A DNA stretch of 34,340 nucleotides from a virus, in IMG/VR virus record IMGVR_UViG_3300030101_000627, positions 1-34,340 of that record; one strand, 5' to 3'. The translations under genes were made by a program, and so were the position numbers. Each line of letters begins with the position of its first letter. Position 1 is the stretch's first letter. The notes below the pieces were generated by a model. That model was not told the DNA's origin. It worked only from the letters and a program-made list of their open reading frames with translations, and ran no database searches. Below are positions 22,599-34,340 of this stretch, in pieces.

Positions 22599-22846
22599 TG
22601 GCTTTATCAAAAACTCAAAGAAGTTTAAGAGCTTGGAGTAGACAGAAGTGGCGTACAAAATCTGGAAAAAAATCGAGCATTACTGGCGAAAGATATTTGC
22701 CTTCTGCTGCAATAAAAAGTTTGAGTGCTGCGGAGTATGCAGCAACAACAAGGGAGAAAAGAAAAGCTAAAAGAAAAGGCAAACAATTTAGCAAACAACC
22801 TAAAAGTATTGCAGCAAAGGTAAGAAGATTTAGACAGTTTAGTTAA
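22598..22846 (+). CDS. DUF5872-like basic protein
   Basis: An 82-residue protein with W-S-R-Q-K-W-R-T-K-S-G-K, then T-G-E-R-Y-L-P-S-A-A-I-K-S-L, A-E-Y-A-A-T-T-R-E-K-R-K-A, and Q-F-S-K-Q-P-K-S-I-A-A-K. This matches a group I know as DUF5872, found in phages, algae viruses and bacteria; the name is from memory. It is the last plus-strand gene of the late region and overlaps by eight bases the tail of the convergent DnaA-like gene. Confidence 0.68.
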   Translation: MALSKTQRSLRAWSRQKWRTKSGKKSSITGERYLPSAAIKSLSAAEYAATTREKRKAKRKGKQFSKQPKSIAAKVRRFRQFS

Positions 22847-23312
22847 TTAAATCTAAATACTCATCCCAAATAGTTTGTTCAGGACTCCAAAATCTTTCTT
22901 TGTTAGCTTTCATTTGTATTGAGTGTAATACTGTAGTGTGGTCCTGTCCAAAGTATCTACCAATATTTGTTAGATTCATATTGTATTTATCATTTAAAAT
23001 ATTGTGTATTATATTTCTTGCACGAACTATATCTTGAGTTCTACATTTACCTAATAAAGTTTTTTTGTGTACCTCATATCTAACACATACTTTATTTATT
23101 ATTTGATCTATATTTTTTGGAGTTGTGCTATTGAATTGAAAATTTATAATTTTTTTTGGTTTGTGTTTTATTTTTTTTTTAATATTATTTCTTGCAAGTT
23201 TATATCCATTTCTAAAACCAGCTTGATATATTTTTAATTCATACTTTGATAGTTTTTCATATTGAGGTGCTTTCATTGCTGTTTTAAATGTTTGTAGCTT
23301 AGTTTTAAGCAT
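22839..23312 (-). CDS. Stand-alone DnaA domain IV protein
   Basis: A 157-residue protein whose residues about 66-150 align well with the DNA-binding domain IV of bacterial DnaA. The stretch L-L-G-K-C-R-T-Q-D-I-V-R-A-R corresponds to the E. coli L-L-S-K-R-R-S-R-S-V-A-R-P-R region, keeping R91 (R399) and R99 (R407). G-R-Y-F-G-Q-D-H-T-T-V-L-H keeps the base-reading D124, H125 and T126. E. coli P423 is replaced by Thr, and one Gly of F-G-G-R is missing. There is no AAA+ ATPase domain; the first 60 residues are basic and unknown. It should bind DnaA boxes. It is the last gene of the minus operon, so it might recruit, mimic or block host DnaA. Confidence 0.82.
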   Translation of the reverse strand: MLKTKLQTFKTAMKAPQYEKLSKYELKIYQAGFRNGYKLARNNIKKKIKHKPKKIINFQFNSTTPKNIDQIINKVCVRYEVHKKTLLGKCRTQDIVRARNIIHNILNDKYNMNLTNIGRYFGQDHTTVLHSIQMKANKERFWSPEQTIWDEYLDLIN

Positions 23313-23355: not shown

Positions 23356-23514
23356 TTATCTCAGCAACAATTCTTTAGCTCTTTCGACTTTCCATATTAA
23401 TCTAAAGCTATCTTTTTGTAACTTGTCAGCTTTATATTTAGTTGCAAGATATGCTTCATGTTTTCTCTGTTGCAAGTCTTTCAACTTCTGGAGTCGTTGT
23501 CTTAGCTTTTCCAT
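23356..23514 (-). CDS. Small basic coiled-coil protein
   Basis: A 52-residue protein, too short for usual callers: E-K-L-R-Q-R-L-Q-K-L-K-D-L-Q-Q-R-K-H, then a second helix ending R-A-K-E-L-L-L-R. AAAGGAGAAGG directly precedes its ATG, one of the best ribosome sites in the operon. It begins inside the preceding gene in another frame (59-base overlap). I do not recognise it. It may be a partner of a neighbouring replication or recombination protein. Confidence 0.6.
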   Translation of the reverse strand: MEKLRQRLQKLKDLQQRKHEAYLATKYKADKLQKDSFRLIWKVERAKELLLR

Positions 23515-23677
23515 CCTTCTCCTTTTTCACTTTAGTAAAGTCTAATTTAACATTCTCTACTTTACATTCTACATACTCACCCTGTGCGTTGGGGTCTGCA
23601 GCTTTCTTTACATCATCAAATCTTTCAACTAATTGAAAATTAGCCTCGCCAGATTTAATTCGTATATATTTAGTCAT
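23456..23677 (-). CDS. Small unknown protein of the recombination operon
   Basis: A 73-residue protein (T-K-Y-I-R-I-K-S-G-E-A-N-F-Q-L-V-E-R-F) with AAAGGA eight bases ahead of the ATG. The middle, G-E-Y-V-E-C-K-V-E-N-V-K-L-D-F-T-K-V, looks like a beta strand pair, and the end is charged and flexible. No family is recognised. It lies immediately after the DUF6378-like gene. Confidence 0.55.
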   Translation of the reverse strand: MTKYIRIKSGEANFQLVERFDDVKKAADPNAQGEYVECKVENVKLDFTKVKKEKDGKAKTTTPEVERLATEKT

Positions 23678-23968
23678 TTAATCCTTTTTGTCTATACTTA
23701 TTTTATGTAGTTCTTTAGCCATTTTTGAGTATATCTCAAGGTCATCATAGTTATCTGCTTTGTATTTTTTAGTTGTTCTATATAATTTTAAACCCATCAT
23801 TAGTTGTCCTACTTCGTGTGGTTCTATATCATCTTTCAATTTGTCGTGCAATATAACATTAAATATTACAGCGATTAGCCTAAAGTTCTCCTTATAATCG
23901 CCATAATCTTCTTGCCGATCCTCCATAATTTTTTTTAAAATCTTATCTGATAAATTTATTGTGTCCAT
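23678..23968 (-). CDS. DUF6378-like protein
   Basis: A 96-residue protein from the ATG at 23968; a TTG at 23995 would add nine residues, and neither start has a clear ribosome site. The pattern E-D-R-Q-E-D-Y-G-D-Y-K-E-N-F-R-L-I-A, then E-P-H-E-V-G-Q-L-M-M-G-L-K-L-Y-R and N-Y-D-D-L-E-I-Y-S is typical of DUF6378, a small helical phage family. The function is not established, though the acidic helices recall MazG-like folds. The 95-base gap above it contains a distant seven-base inverted repeat (GATGAGG/CCTCATC). Confidence 0.72.
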   Translation of the reverse strand: MDTINLSDKILKKIMEDRQEDYGDYKENFRLIAVIFNVILHDKLKDDIEPHEVGQLMMGLKLYRTTKKYKADNYDDLEIYSKMAKELHKISIDKKD

Positions 23969-24063
23969 AACTAGGTGATGAGGCAGAGAAAACAACTAAA
24001 GACGGCAGAAAGGGATGCCAATAAAAACTCCACCTCATCGAAAGGTATATAAACTAATACCTA

Positions 24064-24357
24064 TTATCTTTTAGCATAGTAGCTTTGTTTTGCATAATCT
24101 TTTTTTGGTGCAAAACTTGGTGTGCCACCACCAGATGATCCCGACTTAGACCTATCATTTGCTCTAAGTCTAACAGTAATCATACCATTCTCATCATCCC
24201 AGCCTGCTTGATTGTGCCAAGTCTCTCCTATCTTAACACCAATACGCCAATCTTTATCAGGTGGAGATTCCTCATTTGGTGGACCAACCCAATCAGGTTG
24301 CTCTGGTGCGTTCTTCTTATCGTTTCTTACTAGCTTAATATATATATCATCAGCCAT
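24064..24357 (-). CDS. Candidate single-strand DNA-binding protein
   Basis: A 97-residue acidic protein translated from a strong AAGGAG site right after the ERF gene. The centre (D-W-R-I-G-V-K-I-G-E-T-W-H-N-Q-A-G-W, then G-M-I-T-V-R-L-R-A) looks like beta strands of an OB-like or DUF736-like small domain. The tail (S-G-S-S-G-G-G-T-P-S-F-A-P) is flexible, as in many SSBs, but ends basic rather than acidic. An SSB role is inferred mainly from the exonuclease-ERF context. Similarity is weak. Confidence 0.45.
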   Translation of the reverse strand: MADDIYIKLVRNDKKNAPEQPDWVGPPNEESPPDKDWRIGVKIGETWHNQAGWDDENGMITVRLRANDRSKSGSSGGGTPSFAPKKDYAKQSYYAKR

Positions 24358-24991
24358 TTGTTATTACTCCTTGGTTTAGTTTTGTCTCATGAGTTTCATA
24401 CAAATCAGTTATCTGTCTGTATTCTCTTTGAGACTTATTATTAGAGTCAAATAATTCTGAGTTAGCCTTTCTCCATTTTCTCAGAGCATAGATGTCATCT
24501 ATTTTTTTTATGTCATCTTTTATTAGACCCATATCAAGCTCCATATCGAGCTTAATATTCTTCTTTCCATTTGTACTTGGAATCTTTTTTACTTCTTCAA
24601 ATGGCTTTGCTTCATATCCATCATCGTCTTTGATACCTGTTTTTAAATTTAATAAGTTTAAGAAAGCATACTTTCTTGAGTATGACATAGCTTGACCAGT
24701 ACCAAACTTATCTAAGCCACCCATAGCACTACAACCATTCATCTCAACTACATCATCTGAATCCACATCGTGTATTCTCATGTAGCAAGTAACCATCACA
24801 TAACTTTCATGTGTATCTGTTTTATAGCTACACATTGGATATAGTCTTTGGTCCAGTAATGCTTGCACAGCCACCTCTTGTACTGCATCGTGCAGCAAAG
24901 GATTGAAGTGCATACCTTTTACTTTCTCTCCTTTCTTTACGCCACCTGCATTTAAACATGCTTGGTGTAATTTTTGATATATTTTTTTCAT
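24350..24991 (-). CDS. ERF-type single-strand annealing protein
   Basis: A 213-residue recombinase of the ERF group, which anneals complementary single strands. The signature G-T-G-Q-A-M-S-Y-S-R-K-Y-A-F-L-N-L-L (97-114) and D-D-D-G (122-125) is the conserved ERF core. The ATG at 24991 is preferred over one at 25006: it forms an ATGA overlap with the exonuclease stop and has GGGGGAT seven bases upstream. The C-terminus is a charged helix. With the exonuclease it makes a two-part recombination system comparable in logic to lambda Red. Confidence 0.82.
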   Translation of the reverse strand: MKKIYQKLHQACLNAGGVKKGEKVKGMHFNPLLHDAVQEVAVQALLDQRLYPMCSYKTDTHESYVMVTCYMRIHDVDSDDVVEMNGCSAMGGLDKFGTGQAMSYSRKYAFLNLLNLKTGIKDDDGYEAKPFEEVKKIPSTNGKKNIKLDMELDMGLIKDDIKKIDDIYALRKWRKANSELFDSNNKSQREYRQITDLYETHETKLNQGVITNG

Positions 24992-25890
24992 GCGTTTATC
25001 CCCCATAGTTGTTTTATTAGTTGTCTTTGTTTGTCTGTTAGATTTTTATAGTGAAAGAAATGATTAAGGTCTGGCTCTTCTGTTAGCTCTGCTAGTTGAG
25101 ATAGATTACCTTTACAATATATAATCATCTGTTCCCATCTATAAATTTTTTTTGTCATCAAGTTGAATTGATATTCTAAATGATCGGCTCTCATCTTCTC
25201 ATGTGTGTCATCAAAGATTAAGTAATCTGTTTCATTTGCCAAACCTAAAAATGGTTTCTTCCCGGTACACTTCCAATAGAAAGCTACTTGTTTCCAGTAG
25301 CCATCAAAGATTGAATCTTCACTTAATTCTTGTTGCTTCCAATAGTATTCATCTTTGTTTTTTCTTTTGTAACATTTGCTAGGTTTTGTTTTTAGTTCTA
25401 AAAATTTTGTATTACTTTCATAATCTATACGACCTATAATATCGTGCATTAATTCTTTGACACTTGCAGCTACATATCTTTCGGCTGCAGTTTTTTCATC
25501 TTTAAATATTTCTTTGTATAGTTTTTTTATTTGTTCAATAATCTTATGTGCAATTTCATCTATGTTATCTCTTGCAAACTTATCTTGTGTATCTATTGGA
25601 TCATACTTATTGATGTCATTTAGTTCTTGTTTGTATATTTCATTGTAATCTCTGTTATCTATTTTTACTTTCTTATCTTTGAAGTATCTATATTCACATA
25701 GTAATCTTTGAGCTGAGTTGTTGGTAAGGTTTCCAACTCTAGGTTTATAGTTCATCAAGAACCCGTCTCTTTCTTTAGGAGAATGATAACCATAATTAGT
25801 TACCCATTTAGCCAAAGGCATATCTGTACTTGAAGGCGACCAATGATCTAAACCTAGACCACCATTAATATTTGAAAAGTATTCTTTCAT
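24988..25890 (-). CDS. PD-(D/E)XK (RecB/Cas4-like) exonuclease
   Basis: A 300-residue nuclease, first gene of the minus operon. It begins with a W-S-P-S-S-T-D-M-P-L-A-K-W motif near residue 17, as in RecB-family enzymes. The active site is visible: G-R-I-D (153-156), L-E-L-K-T (164-168) and the following Q-V-A-F-Y (201-205). D156, E165 and K167 are the expected metal-binding and catalytic residues, and Q201/Y205 the QxxxY motif. It would resect double-strand ends for the ERF partner. No ribosome site precedes the ATG, and a predicted promoter lies so close that the message may be nearly leaderless. Confidence 0.8.
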   Translation of the reverse strand: MKEYFSNINGGLGLDHWSPSSTDMPLAKWVTNYGYHSPKERDGFLMNYKPRVGNLTNNSAQRLLCEYRYFKDKKVKIDNRDYNEIYKQELNDINKYDPIDTQDKFARDNIDEIAHKIIEQIKKLYKEIFKDEKTAAERYVAASVKELMHDIIGRIDYESNTKFLELKTKPSKCYKRKNKDEYYWKQQELSEDSIFDGYWKQVAFYWKCTGKKPFLGLANETDYLIFDDTHEKMRADHLEYQFNLMTKKIYRWEQMIIYCKGNLSQLAELTEEPDLNHFFHYKNLTDKQRQLIKQLWGINA

Positions 25891-26634: not shown

Positions 26635-27015
26635 ATGGCACGCTGGACCTACGCTTTTAGTAATGGGGATTATAATGATTGGCACAGACAATTTGAAGGA
26701 TTAGCCGGTATAGACATAGATTTTATTGAGGTTTGTCCTAAATGCTATCAACCTTTAGCAGTAAAAGAAACTTGCTATGACAAGGGTCAGGTTTACAAGG
26801 CTACAACCCTTACAAAGATAGTCGCTAATGCTCTTCAGATACCCGGATTTTTAGTTTTTTACACTCCTATGGGTAAGGATATGAAATTTAGGATAAAACG
26901 CATTACAGAGCCTGTGAGTAAGATATATGAGCTAACACAGGATGAGTGGTTAAGGTATTTATATGAGTTGCATAAGGAACACAGGAGGTGTTGCAAAAAT
27001 GCAACAGAAGTATGA
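26635..27015 (+). CDS. Unknown protein with CPxC motif, nuclease-like layout
   Basis: A 126-residue protein. A-G-I-D-I-D-F-I-E-V-C-P-K-C-Y-Q-P-L-A-V then K-E-T-C-Y-D-K-G-Q, followed by A-L-Q-I-P-G-F-L-V-F-Y-T. The spacing of D-x-D, then a strand carrying Glu, then I-P-x-x-L-V-F-Y recalls restriction-like phage proteins, but the catalytic Lys after Glu is not in the usual place. The two Cys of C-P-K-C might bind zinc with C47. It lies directly before the initiator gene. I regard a nuclease fold as possible only. Confidence 0.48.
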   Translation: MARWTYAFSNGDYNDWHRQFEGLAGIDIDFIEVCPKCYQPLAVKETCYDKGQVYKATTLTKIVANALQIPGFLVFYTPMGKDMKFRIKRITEPVSKIYELTQDEWLRYLYELHKEHRRCCKNATEV

Positions 27016-27712
27016 GCCACACATAAGGGTTAAGTTCTCTTTATTTGATAGCAAACAATTTAGAACCATTCCAAACAAACACCGAGCTTACTGCTATTTG
27101 GTATTCATTTGTTTACTAAAGTTCGCAAACTCTAGGACTTTAACCTGTTATCCACGCCAAGCCACCCTATCTAGTATGACAGGTCTTAGTCGCAGCACTA
27201 TTTTTAGAACTACTGAATTGTTAGAGAGATCACAAATTATTACAAAAAAACGCCAAAAGTCTACTACATTATATACTATTAATAAAGATTTAGTTGTGTC
27301 TGTGAGAAACTATGATGTGTCTACAGGACACATGGGTAGTGTCTACAGGACTAATATTAGTAGAACTAACATAACAACTAACAGTAATATAACTATCTTT
27401 ATAAAAGGTCTTGCAGAGGGTGGTAGCGATAAAGAGACTATCTTAGAAAAGCTAGCGTCTAAGTTTACAACCAAAGAACTAAATCAAGCTATTAAGGATA
27501 ATGATAACCCTTATTTGTGTAAACAGGCTCTTCAAATAAAAGAACAAGAAGGAGTGAAGTATGTCTCAAAAGATGTTATAAATAAGGCAGTACAAAATGT
27601 ACAAAAGAATACTAATTATTTTTATAAGAATAAGGTAGCAGAGAATAAAAGAAAACATGGCAGGATTTCAGCAACGAAAAGTTTTTTGTCAAGGTCTAAC
27701 AAGAAAAAGTAA
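26999..27712 (+). CDS. Winged-helix replication initiator-like protein
   Basis: A 237-residue protein from the ATG at 26999, which has AGGAGG ten bases upstream; an ATG at 26963 lies in the previous gene. Residues about 10-95 form a winged helix-turn-helix of the HTH_36/RepA/lambda-O kind (L-T-C-Y-P-R-Q-A-T-L-S-S-M-T-G-L-S-R-S-T, then L-L-E-R-S-Q-I-I-T-K-K). Residues about 100-140 are a low-complexity Ser/Thr/Asn linker, and the C-terminal part is helical and basic. The linker-coding DNA carries spaced repeats, as in lambda O, whose gene contains the origin. It probably binds them and recruits host replication proteins. Confidence 0.72.
   Translation: MQQKYEPHIRVKFSLFDSKQFRTIPNKHRAYCYLVFICLLKFANSRTLTCYPRQATLSSMTGLSRSTIFRTTELLERSQIITKKRQKSTTLYTINKDLVVSVRNYDVSTGHMGSVYRTNISRTNITTNSNITIFIKGLAEGGSDKETILEKLASKFTTKELNQAIKDNDNPYLCKQALQIKEQEGVKYVSKDVINKAVQNVQKNTNYFYKNKVAENKRKHGRISATKSFLSRSNKKK
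27148..27156 (+). other. DnaA-box-like nonamer
   Basis: TTATCCACG differs from the strict E. coli DnaA box TTATCCACA at the last base only. It lies inside the winged-helix initiator gene, about 140 bases before the GTGTC repeats. By eye it is the closest match I found in the window, and the phage also encodes a DnaA-box-binding domain at 22839. A single nonamer can be chance. Confidence 0.3.
27296..27361 (+). repeat. Iteron-like repeats inside the initiator gene (candidate origin)
   Basis: Three sites of the form GTGTC-N5-GA lie at 27296, 27317 and 27339, that is 21 and 22 bases apart. Copies two and three share 13 identical bases (GTGTCTACAGGAC). Copy two is a full inverted repeat, GTGTC-TACAG-GACAC. 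Copies two and three are in different reading frames, so the likeness is not forced by the protein. A perfect 12-base palindrome ACTAATATTAGT (27350-27361) and an AT-rich stretch follow. The arrangement resembles the lambda origin inside gene O. Confidence 0.55.
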
Positions 27713-28391: not shown

Positions 28392-28535
28392 TCTAATTTA
28401 TTATTTCGTTGAGACTCTAATTTATTATTTCGTTGAGACTCTAATTTATTATTTCGTTGATAGTGCAGTTTATTATTCAAAAAAAAATCTAATTTATTAT
28501 TTCGTTGTATGTTTATTATTTATTTTTTTTTATTT
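28392..28535. repeat. Phased 24-bp tandem repeats after the small terminase
   Basis: A 24-base unit begins at 28392 and repeats exactly at 28416. A third copy at 28440 matches for 20 bases. A degenerate copy fills 28464-28487, a copy at 28488 matches 20 bases, and a worn copy (TTTATTATTT) starts at 28512. The core is TTATTATTTCGTTGA. No gene covers it: it separates the convergent small-terminase and tiny-gene operons. Even phasing of near-identical 20-base cores suggests a protein-binding array, for packaging or replication. Confidence 0.75.
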
Positions 28536-29491: not shown

Positions 29492-29604
29492 AATATATAT
29501 AGACATATTGGTTATATATTAACATGGTCAATAATGTCGCAGATGTAAATATATATAGACATTTTGGTTATGTAGTTATAAAAGTTTAAATGTCAATAAT
29601 GACA
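29492..29604. promoter_or_regulatory. Repeat-rich divergent regulatory region
   Basis: A 24-base element at 29492-29515 recurs at 29548-29571 with one mismatch (core TATATATAGACAT, then TTGGTTAT). A second element GTCAATAATG occurs at 29527-29536 and 29592-29601. The latter is part of a perfect inverted repeat, TGTCA-ATAA-TGACA (29591-29604). On the minus strand the same region contains TTGACA and TTGACC, good -35 candidates for the tiny-gene operon. The region is flanked by divergent genes, so these are likely operators or duplicated promoters. Confidence 0.5.
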
Positions 29605-29630: not shown

Positions 29631-30224
29631 ATGAAACCAATAAGATCAAATGAGTTAGAGCATTATAAAGAGGAAATAAATAAAAAGTTTCGATATAAAG
29701 CTCAAGCGATTGAAAGCGAAATACAGCAAGAAGCTCAAACGCTTTCAGATAAGAAAAAACCTAGCTTTCAAAAATTAGTCAAGGTTGATAAAAAAATGGC
29801 TAATTTAATTGAAGCTGAAAAAAAGTATAAAAAGCATCTAATGAATAAAGACGCTATTGAGCGTAAATTATTAGAGGATGTAAGAAAAAAAGCTAAAGAA
29901 GTTGAGGACCACTGCAACAGGGTTCGTAATGTGCGAGATTGGTCTGAAAGTTTTAGCGGTTATAGTGCAAGGCATGAAATAGACGATCAAGCTAGTAATT
30001 ACTTTATAGATCAACTTAATGACGCTTGCTACCAAGAAGCATTTAAAAGCGTTCAATCAAATCATAAGTTAAGACAAATATTAGAATCTAAAAGAGAATT
30101 GGCTTATAATATTTTATATAGTGGCGGGGATATTAACGCCATATTAAGTGAATTGGTGAAAGCGTTTAAAAGTGCTGACATTGAATATGCTGTTCCAAAC
30201 TCACTATTGCAATTAAGTAAATAA
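29631..30224 (+). CDS. Orphan coiled-coil protein
   Basis: A 197-residue protein with an AAAGGT site. Residues 10-110 form a long charged coiled coil (E-E-I-N-K-K-F-R-Y-K-A-Q-A-I-E-S, later K-K-M-A-N-L-I-E-A-E-K-K-Y). The C-terminal part is a helical domain with W-S-E-S-F-S-G-Y-S-A-R-H and L-Y-S-G-G-D-I-N-A-I-L-S-E-L. No family is recognised. It has its own upstream repeat region and a downstream terminator and uses codons such as AGC and GCG more than its neighbours, so it may be a late-acquired independent cassette. Confidence 0.65.
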   Translation: MKPIRSNELEHYKEEINKKFRYKAQAIESEIQQEAQTLSDKKKPSFQKLVKVDKKMANLIEAEKKYKKHLMNKDAIERKLLEDVRKKAKEVEDHCNRVRNVRDWSESFSGYSARHEIDDQASNYFIDQLNDACYQEAFKSVQSNHKLRQILESKRELAYNILYSGGDINAILSELVKAFKSADIEYAVPNSLLQLSK

Positions 30225-33153: not shown

Positions 33154-34340
33154 TGGCAAAAACTGATTTAACAAAAACTATCATGGCGAGATTTGATCGC
33201 CTTAAAACTGGTAGACAAAACTGGGAAACACATTGGCAAGAAGTTGCAGACTACATGCAACCTAGAAAAGCTGATGTAACTAGAACAAGATCAAAAGGTG
33301 ATAAACGAACAGAACTTATTTTTGATTCCTCTCCAATACAAGCTGTAGAATTGTTAGCTGCATCCCTACATGGAATGTTGACTAACCCTTCTACTCCTTG
33401 GTTCTCACTTAGATATAAGGATGAAGGATTAGATTCAGATGATGAAGCAAAACTTTGGTTAGAAGGTGTAACCGATACTATGTATACAGCTTTTAATAGA
33501 TCAAACTTTCAACAAGAAATATTTGAATTGTATCATGATCTAATTACATTTGGTACTGCTGCAATGTTTATTGAAGAAGATCAAAACGATCTTTTAAAAT
33601 TTTCTACAAGACACATTAATGAAATATATATTACTGAAAATGATAAAGGTAGAATAGATACAGTATACAGAAAATTTAAAATTACACTTAGAGCTGCTGC
33701 TCAACAGTTTGGTAATAACTTATCTGAAGAAGCAAGAAACAAAGTAGAGAAAGATCCATTTGATGAAATAGATATTTTACATGCTGTATATCCAAGACAA
33801 GACTTTAATCCTAATAAAAAAGATAAACAGAACATGGAGTTTGAATCTGTTTATGTAGAATACAAAAATGGTAATGAACTATCAGTAGGTGGTTTTATGG
33901 AGTTTCCTTTTGTAGTACCAAGATATTTAAAAGCATCACATGAAATCTATGGTAGATCACCTGCAATGACAGCACTACCAGATGTGAAGATGCTAAATGA
34001 AATGTCAAAGACAACTATCAAAGCTGCACAGAAACAAGTAGACCCACCGCTATTAGTTCCTGATGATGGTTTTTTATTACCAGTTAGAACTGTACCGGGA
34101 GGACTTAACTTTTATAGATCAGGTACAAGAGATAGAATTGAACCATTAAACATTGGTGCAAACAATCCATTAGGTTTGAATATGGAAGAACAAAGAAGAA
34201 CTGCAATTAGAAATGTATTCTATGTAGATCAACTATTGTTACAACAAGGACCACAAATGACAGCAACAGAAGTCATACAAAGAAACGAAGAGAAGATGAG
34301 ATTACTTGGTCCAGTATTAGGTAGACTACAATCAGAATTA
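33153..34340 (+). CDS. Portal (head-tail connector) protein, N-terminal part
   Basis: This frame begins at ATG 33153 and runs to the window end with no stop. It continues at 1-531 once the 90 duplicated bases are removed, giving 542 residues. The start, M-A-K-T-D-L-T-K-T-I-M-A-R-F-D, then G-R-Q-N-W-E-T-H-W-Q-E-V-A-D-Y-M-Q-P-R, S-P-I-Q-A-V-E-L-L-A-A-S-L-H-G-M-L and N-P-S-T-P-W-F is typical of the podovirus head-to-tail connecting protein. Its ATG overlaps the previous stop (TAATG), so it is tightly coupled. Confidence 0.94.
   Translation, partial: MAKTDLTKTIMARFDRLKTGRQNWETHWQEVADYMQPRKADVTRTRSKGDKRTELIFDSSPIQAVELLAASLHGMLTNPSTPWFSLRYKDEGLDSDDEAKLWLEGVTDTMYTAFNRSNFQQEIFELYHDLITFGTAAMFIEEDQNDLLKFSTRHINEIYITENDKGRIDTVYRKFKITLRAAAQQFGNNLSEEARNKVEKDPFDEIDILHAVYPRQDFNPNKKDKQNMEFESVYVEYKNGNELSVGGFMEFPFVVPRYLKASHEIYGRSPAMTALPDVKMLNEMSKTTIKAAQKQVDPPLLVPDDGFLLPVRTVPGGLNFYRSGTRDRIEPLNIGANNPLGLNMEEQRRTAIRNVFYVDQLLLQQGPQMTATEVIQRNEEKMRLLGPVLGRLQSEL
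34251..34340 (+). repeat. 90-base repeat of the window start (circular closure)
   Basis: Bases 34251-34340 equal bases 1-90 without a difference, and both copies read in the portal frame. A natural terminal repeat is unlikely in the middle of a head gene. It is the usual overlap left when an assembler closes a circle or a circularly permuted genome. The unique length is therefore 34,250 bases. Confidence 0.95.

Follow-up and report, generated by a model that had tools for sequence, protein, structure and literature searches.

A DnaA domain IV protein of HTVC010P-type pelagiphages that may act on host DnaA boxes, and a candidate lambda-type origin inside an O-like gene

In this study, we examined a small DnaA-like protein of an uncultured pelagiphage and relate it to how phages of this group may replicate. 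Its gene (22839..23312) encodes 157 aa on the minus strand, from an ATG at 23312 to a stop at 22839, and lies in IMG/VR record IMGVR_UViG_3300030101_000627, whose 34,340 nucleotides we refer to as the window; an exact 90-bp end repeat (1-90 = 34251-34340) identifies the window as a complete phage genome of ~34.25 kb, circular or end-redundant. Judged by sequence and predicted structure, the product is a stand-alone DnaA domain IV without the ATPase and oligomerising parts. We tentatively favour the explanation that it acts on host DnaA boxes and competes with DnaA at oriC, a reading we regard as plausible rather than probable. Comparison across genomes further points to a candidate origin, formed by repeats in an O-like gene, and distinguishes the initiator encoded by that gene from the DnaA domain IV protein. 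Both results bear on how HTVC010P-type phages, abundant marine viruses that infect the ocean's commonest bacteria, replicate with almost no replication genes.

What was originally predicted of the protein itself was largely borne out. Bac_DnaA_C (PF08299) matched residues 68-133 over profile positions 1-67 of 69 (E=5.5e-18; 65.2 bits, cut-off 31.5), which places DnaA domain IV in the C-terminal part as proposed, and a PDB sequence search returned domain IV of E. coli DnaA (1j1v, 6e-6) and the M. tuberculosis DnaA-DBD (3pvp, 8e-4). The AlphaFold2 model, for which metagenome loci served as the input sequences, was confident over residues ~65-157 (block pLDDT 82-92) and contains the helix-turn-helix fold of DnaA domain IV. 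All of its top 12 PDB matches in Foldseek were DnaA, with TM scores by target length of 0.80 for 3pvp and 0.77 for 1j1v (probability 1.00), so the predicted fold also agrees with the proposed domain. Pfam detected neither an AAA+ nor a DnaA N-terminal domain in the 157 residues, consistent with the claim that the AAA+ domain is absent, and the protein thus lacks the domains III (AAA+) and I expected of a full DnaA initiator. Its layout comprises an N-terminal helical module (residues 1-45), domain IV (~65-136) and a C-terminal W-x6-W tail (W142, W149).

Conservation was assessed in 249 sequences, forming 32 clusters at 85% identity, with E. coli DnaA numbering taken from the 1j1v alignment and contact roles being those of that structure. 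Of the 249 homologues, 248-249 have K89 (E. coli K397), R91 (R399), R99 (R407), D124 (D433) and H125 (H434), and 246 have T126 (T435); the equivalent of T436 is also kept. The box-reading residues named in the original prediction (R91, D124, H125 and T126) are therefore present and conserved. Elsewhere the homologues fall to ~33% identity while the base-reading residues are practically invariant, which argues that the target DNA has stayed constant across the group. Compared with E. coli DnaA there are three changes, Q408 to N/S, P423 to S/T and R432 to Q, and these could alter DNA specificity. Outside domain IV, Y29, F33, G36, W142 and W149 are invariant in the 249 homologues. The most diverged homologues (L037, L038 and L039) combine an N-terminal module nearly as in the window with a very different domain IV, a pattern that suggests, at the level of sequence, two exchangeable modules.

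The gene is a member of a known and widespread phage family. With tblastn, full-length homologues were found in 19 phage records, all of them HTVC010P-type Pelagibacter phages, the closest being 71% identical, and relatives are encoded in at least 426 IMG/VR stretches. HTVC034P gp20, Greip gp42, Skadi-1_28 and HTVC010P AGE60316 are the same gene in the same place after the nuclease and ERF genes; full-length homology and conserved position together place the window gene in this HTVC010P-type DnaA-like family, and it differs from the isolate genes in sequence divergence only, the window being an uncultured phage of the same group. The novelty implied at first was overstated, as several isolate homologues already carry the label 'DNA replication initiation (DnaA)' or Bac_DnaA_C and a 2019 paper listed DnaA among the proteins common to all HTVC010P-related genomes (PMC6811365). 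The genome collection gave a single match, L051, a pelagiphage-like contig binned in a Woesearchaeota MAG, where it is probably contamination.

All operon genes lie on the minus strand, beginning with a putative nuclease (24988..25890), so annotated in isolate homologues, one of which has a weak Cas4-like PHROG match (2e-4). It is followed by an ERF-type single-strand annealing protein (24350..25006; PF04404, 7e-9; PHROG Erf-like, 5e-14), a small gene covered by the Pfam and PHROG scans (24064..24357), a DUF6378 protein (23678..23995; profile match 6e-17) and a 73-aa gene (23456..23677) with no Pfam or PHROG match. Of the exonuclease and annealing proteins originally assigned to this operon, the ERF protein is confirmed; the exonuclease corresponds to the isolate label and the one Cas4-like match. 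Related phages share the arrangement: the DnaA domain IV gene accompanies nuclease and ERF, in the same gene order, in 10 of the 10 isolate genomes examined. Between the 73-aa gene and the DnaA domain IV gene, directly upstream of the latter, the operon also holds an unannotated 52-aa coiled-coil-like ORF (23356..23514, minus strand), the reading of which recurs in isolates. The 143-bp gap before the DnaA domain IV gene had been considered as an origin and was ruled out, since it holds this conserved small ORF.

DnaA boxes in the phage genome were considered as targets, and TTATCCACG at 27148..27156 (plus strand) had been put forward as one. This site lies inside the coding sequence of the O-like gene and reads TTACCCACG in five of seven close relatives, a synonymous change that breaks the box; being coding and non-conserved, it was judged a chance match. 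Nor are boxes enriched in any of 11 genomes (exact boxes: 1 observed, 4.7 expected). One-mismatch boxes in these genomes numbered 117 against 134.8 expected, a ratio of 0.87 that is uninformative, as scrambled words of the same composition span 0.41 to 1.49, and we claim no depletion. DnaA-box 8-mers are rare between genes, and the top enriched intergenic 8-mers of the 11 genomes resemble ribosome-binding sites, none of them a DnaA box. Boxes were likewise not enriched in four other phages with domain IV proteins. Degenerate phage sites may still be compatible with this lack of exact boxes.

Contrary to the original view that the phage lacks any replication enzyme, the gene at 26963..27712 (plus strand) encodes a lambda-O-like replication initiator with iterons inside the gene. 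It matches PHROG 1032 (1e-7), PHROG 270 (1e-6) and a DnaD-like PHROG (4e-5), and its relatives match PHROG 678, 'replication initiation O-like' (3.7e-7 to 1e-4). In the model, a winged helix is followed by a disordered linker (residues 112-140) and a C-terminal domain made of helices; the winged helix is similar to those of plasmid RepA-type initiators, as well as to many generic winged helices. GenBank records of the isolates call the orthologue 'putative transcriptional regulator', for which 'O-like replication initiator with intragenic origin' would probably be the better name. A lambda-like helicase loader is referred to in the Skadi paper, in passages that do not name its gene (PMC10504331). 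We found no counterpart of lambda P in the phage.

Within the linker-coding DNA, the 13-mer GTGTCTACAGGAC occurs at 27317..27329 (codon phase 0) and, 22 bp further, at 27339..27351 (codon phase 1), both on the plus strand, and nowhere else in the window. A direct repeat is found in the corresponding DNA of 10 of 11 genomes, spaced by 22 bp in nine and by 21 bp in HTVC034P; HTVC203P has no clear repeat in its O-like gene. The combined p-value over these genomes is indicative only, as related genomes are not independent samples. The repeat is confined to one place in each genome, 44-53% of the way along the gene. Among 24 nonredundant linkers the best offset was 22 in 20, and at least 12 of 14 positions matched in 16, compared with 0.3% of control windows. 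In all genomes with the 22-bp spacing, the codon phase differs between the two copies, and so does the encoded peptide (QIAVK against PDSRF in Greip, for instance), which argues that the repeat is kept as DNA. Its sequence is lineage-specific at constant position and spacing, and follows the recognition helix of the O-like protein across lineages. The window's pair, with its exact spacing, recurs in seven other contigs, and in those with a readable gene the codons of the iterons are unchanged although the remainder of the O-like gene has diverged. Taken together, the comparison shows the repeats to have the makeup of a lambda-type intragenic phage origin, apparently without annotation so far, for which we infer origin activity.

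Two further repeats were observed in the window. After the putative small terminase gene, a tandem array at 28392-28507 consists of 4.8 copies of a 24-bp unit, TCTAATTTATTATTTCGTTGAGAC, and is followed by a very AT-rich stretch; a similar multi-copy array is present in two other viral contigs only (L274, the same contig as L001, and L286), and a second origin element or a regulatory site is possible. Two 27-bp direct repeats, 93% alike, lie just upstream of the gene at 29631 (29492-29518 and 29548-29574) and are possibly a tandem operator or promoter.

These findings bear on what the DnaA domain IV protein does. It had been considered as the reader of the iterons and was rejected as such because they covary with the O-like helix; moreover, L184 and L187 have the same DnaA domain IV reading residues and different iterons, so the phage iterons do not appear to be its target. 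As the phage has its own O-like initiator and intragenic iterons, the proposal that the protein is the main means of taking over host replication is not supported. On these sequence comparisons, it is unlikely to read the iterons and does not appear to be the phage's main initiator.

Our leading explanation, action on host boxes, is favoured because the DNA-reading residues are constant and the phage has no constant boxes of its own; from the conservation of these readers, host DnaA boxes are predicted to be bound. The protein is encoded in the recombination operon of a phage whose replication appears to start from a lambda-type origin inside the O-like gene, and it would bind DnaA-box DNA (candidate target TTATCCACA) in trans. 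Its main sites would be host boxes at oriC and DnaA-regulated promoters, assuming that such boxes are present and match the protein. In established DnaA biology, a DNA-binding domain without AAA+ should occupy origins and not open them. Occupation of these sites without unwinding would lower host initiation, so that the phage origin could draw on the helicase and polymerase of the host. No DNA polymerase is encoded by the isolates (PMC10504331), and they therefore need the host replisome. The fuller scenario for lytic pelagiphages, in which a DnaA-domain decoy occupies SAR11 boxes and stops host initiation while a lambda-type origin takes the host replisome, is possible and we consider it rather doubtful; if true, the phage would block host initiation directly, by acting at the box itself. 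Against host targeting, other phages, several of them temperate, carry domain IV proteins near replication genes, which by analogy would accord at least as well with a role in phage replication.

Such a role would be that of an accessory replication factor, which would recognise degenerate sites close to the phage origin, or link the O-like protein to host DnaA/DnaB, aiding origin opening or transcriptional activation as host DnaA does for lambda; overall we think this somewhat unlikely. In unrelated phages, domain IV proteins indeed occur within replication or recombination modules. The neighbour is DUF1376 in Rhizobium phage RHph_N28_2, a DnaC-like ATPase in a Leeuwenhoekiella phage and a primase in AmM-1; a Bradyrhizobium prophage has the protein together with ERF, YqaJ and DUF1376, and a Microcystis phage has it with ERF. 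The conserved N-terminal module could bind a partner, and host DnaA is known to stimulate transcriptional activation of ori-lambda (PMC3985674; PMC7466680). However, the only box near the O-like gene is not conserved, the two genes are in different operons, and the covariation of the iterons is with the O-like helix and not with domain IV.

Less likely still, we judge, is a transcription activator of the GafY/GafA type, whose DnaA-IV-like domain would recruit RNA polymerase to phage promoters such as that of the late operon. There are alphaproteobacterial precedents, as a DnaA-like DNA-binding domain of GafA is needed for RcGTA activation (PMC9638019) and GafY, which contacts RpoD, binds DNA upstream of the capsid operon (PMC11150451); L262 contains a GafY-like protein whose 151 aa are close to the length of the pelagiphage protein, and a phage RNA polymerase is absent from the isolates (PMC10504331). 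Yet the GafY-like protein has DRSTV in place of DHTTV, and so has lost the H434 equivalent, and in GafA the R399 position is occupied by E; the pelagiphage protein keeps all of these readers. Further, the search for shared intergenic motifs gave none like a DnaA box. Neither the annotated flanking genes of the isolates nor the window genes scanned with Pfam and PHROGs included a recognisable GafZ-like gene. That the protein is a functionless, degenerate remnant of a captured dnaA, as the single DnaA domain left might suggest, is hardly credible given its strict conservation in 249 homologues, including the invariant positions outside domain IV, and a gene order that is the same in all genomes.

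Compared with known systems, the action on host boxes that we favour would be carried out by a protein that shares the fold and the base-reading residues of bacterial DnaA domain IV (1j1v, 3pvp), but differs from bacterial DnaA in having no domains I-III, in the substitutions noted above and in its added N-terminal helical module and W-x6-W tail. GafY and the N-terminal part of GafA likewise have a DnaA-IV-like domain and are small, phage-derived and alphaproteobacterial (PMC9638019; PMC11150451); they differ in their altered contact residues and in being transcription activators paired with GafZ. The replication module, in turn, differs from that of lambda in having two or three iterons, where lambda has four, of unrelated sequence. 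It nevertheless resembles lambda O and ori-lambda in its winged-helix initiator match, in a spacing of ~20-24 bp, and in mid-gene iterons over a disordered linker, those of lambda occupying codons 117-139 of O.
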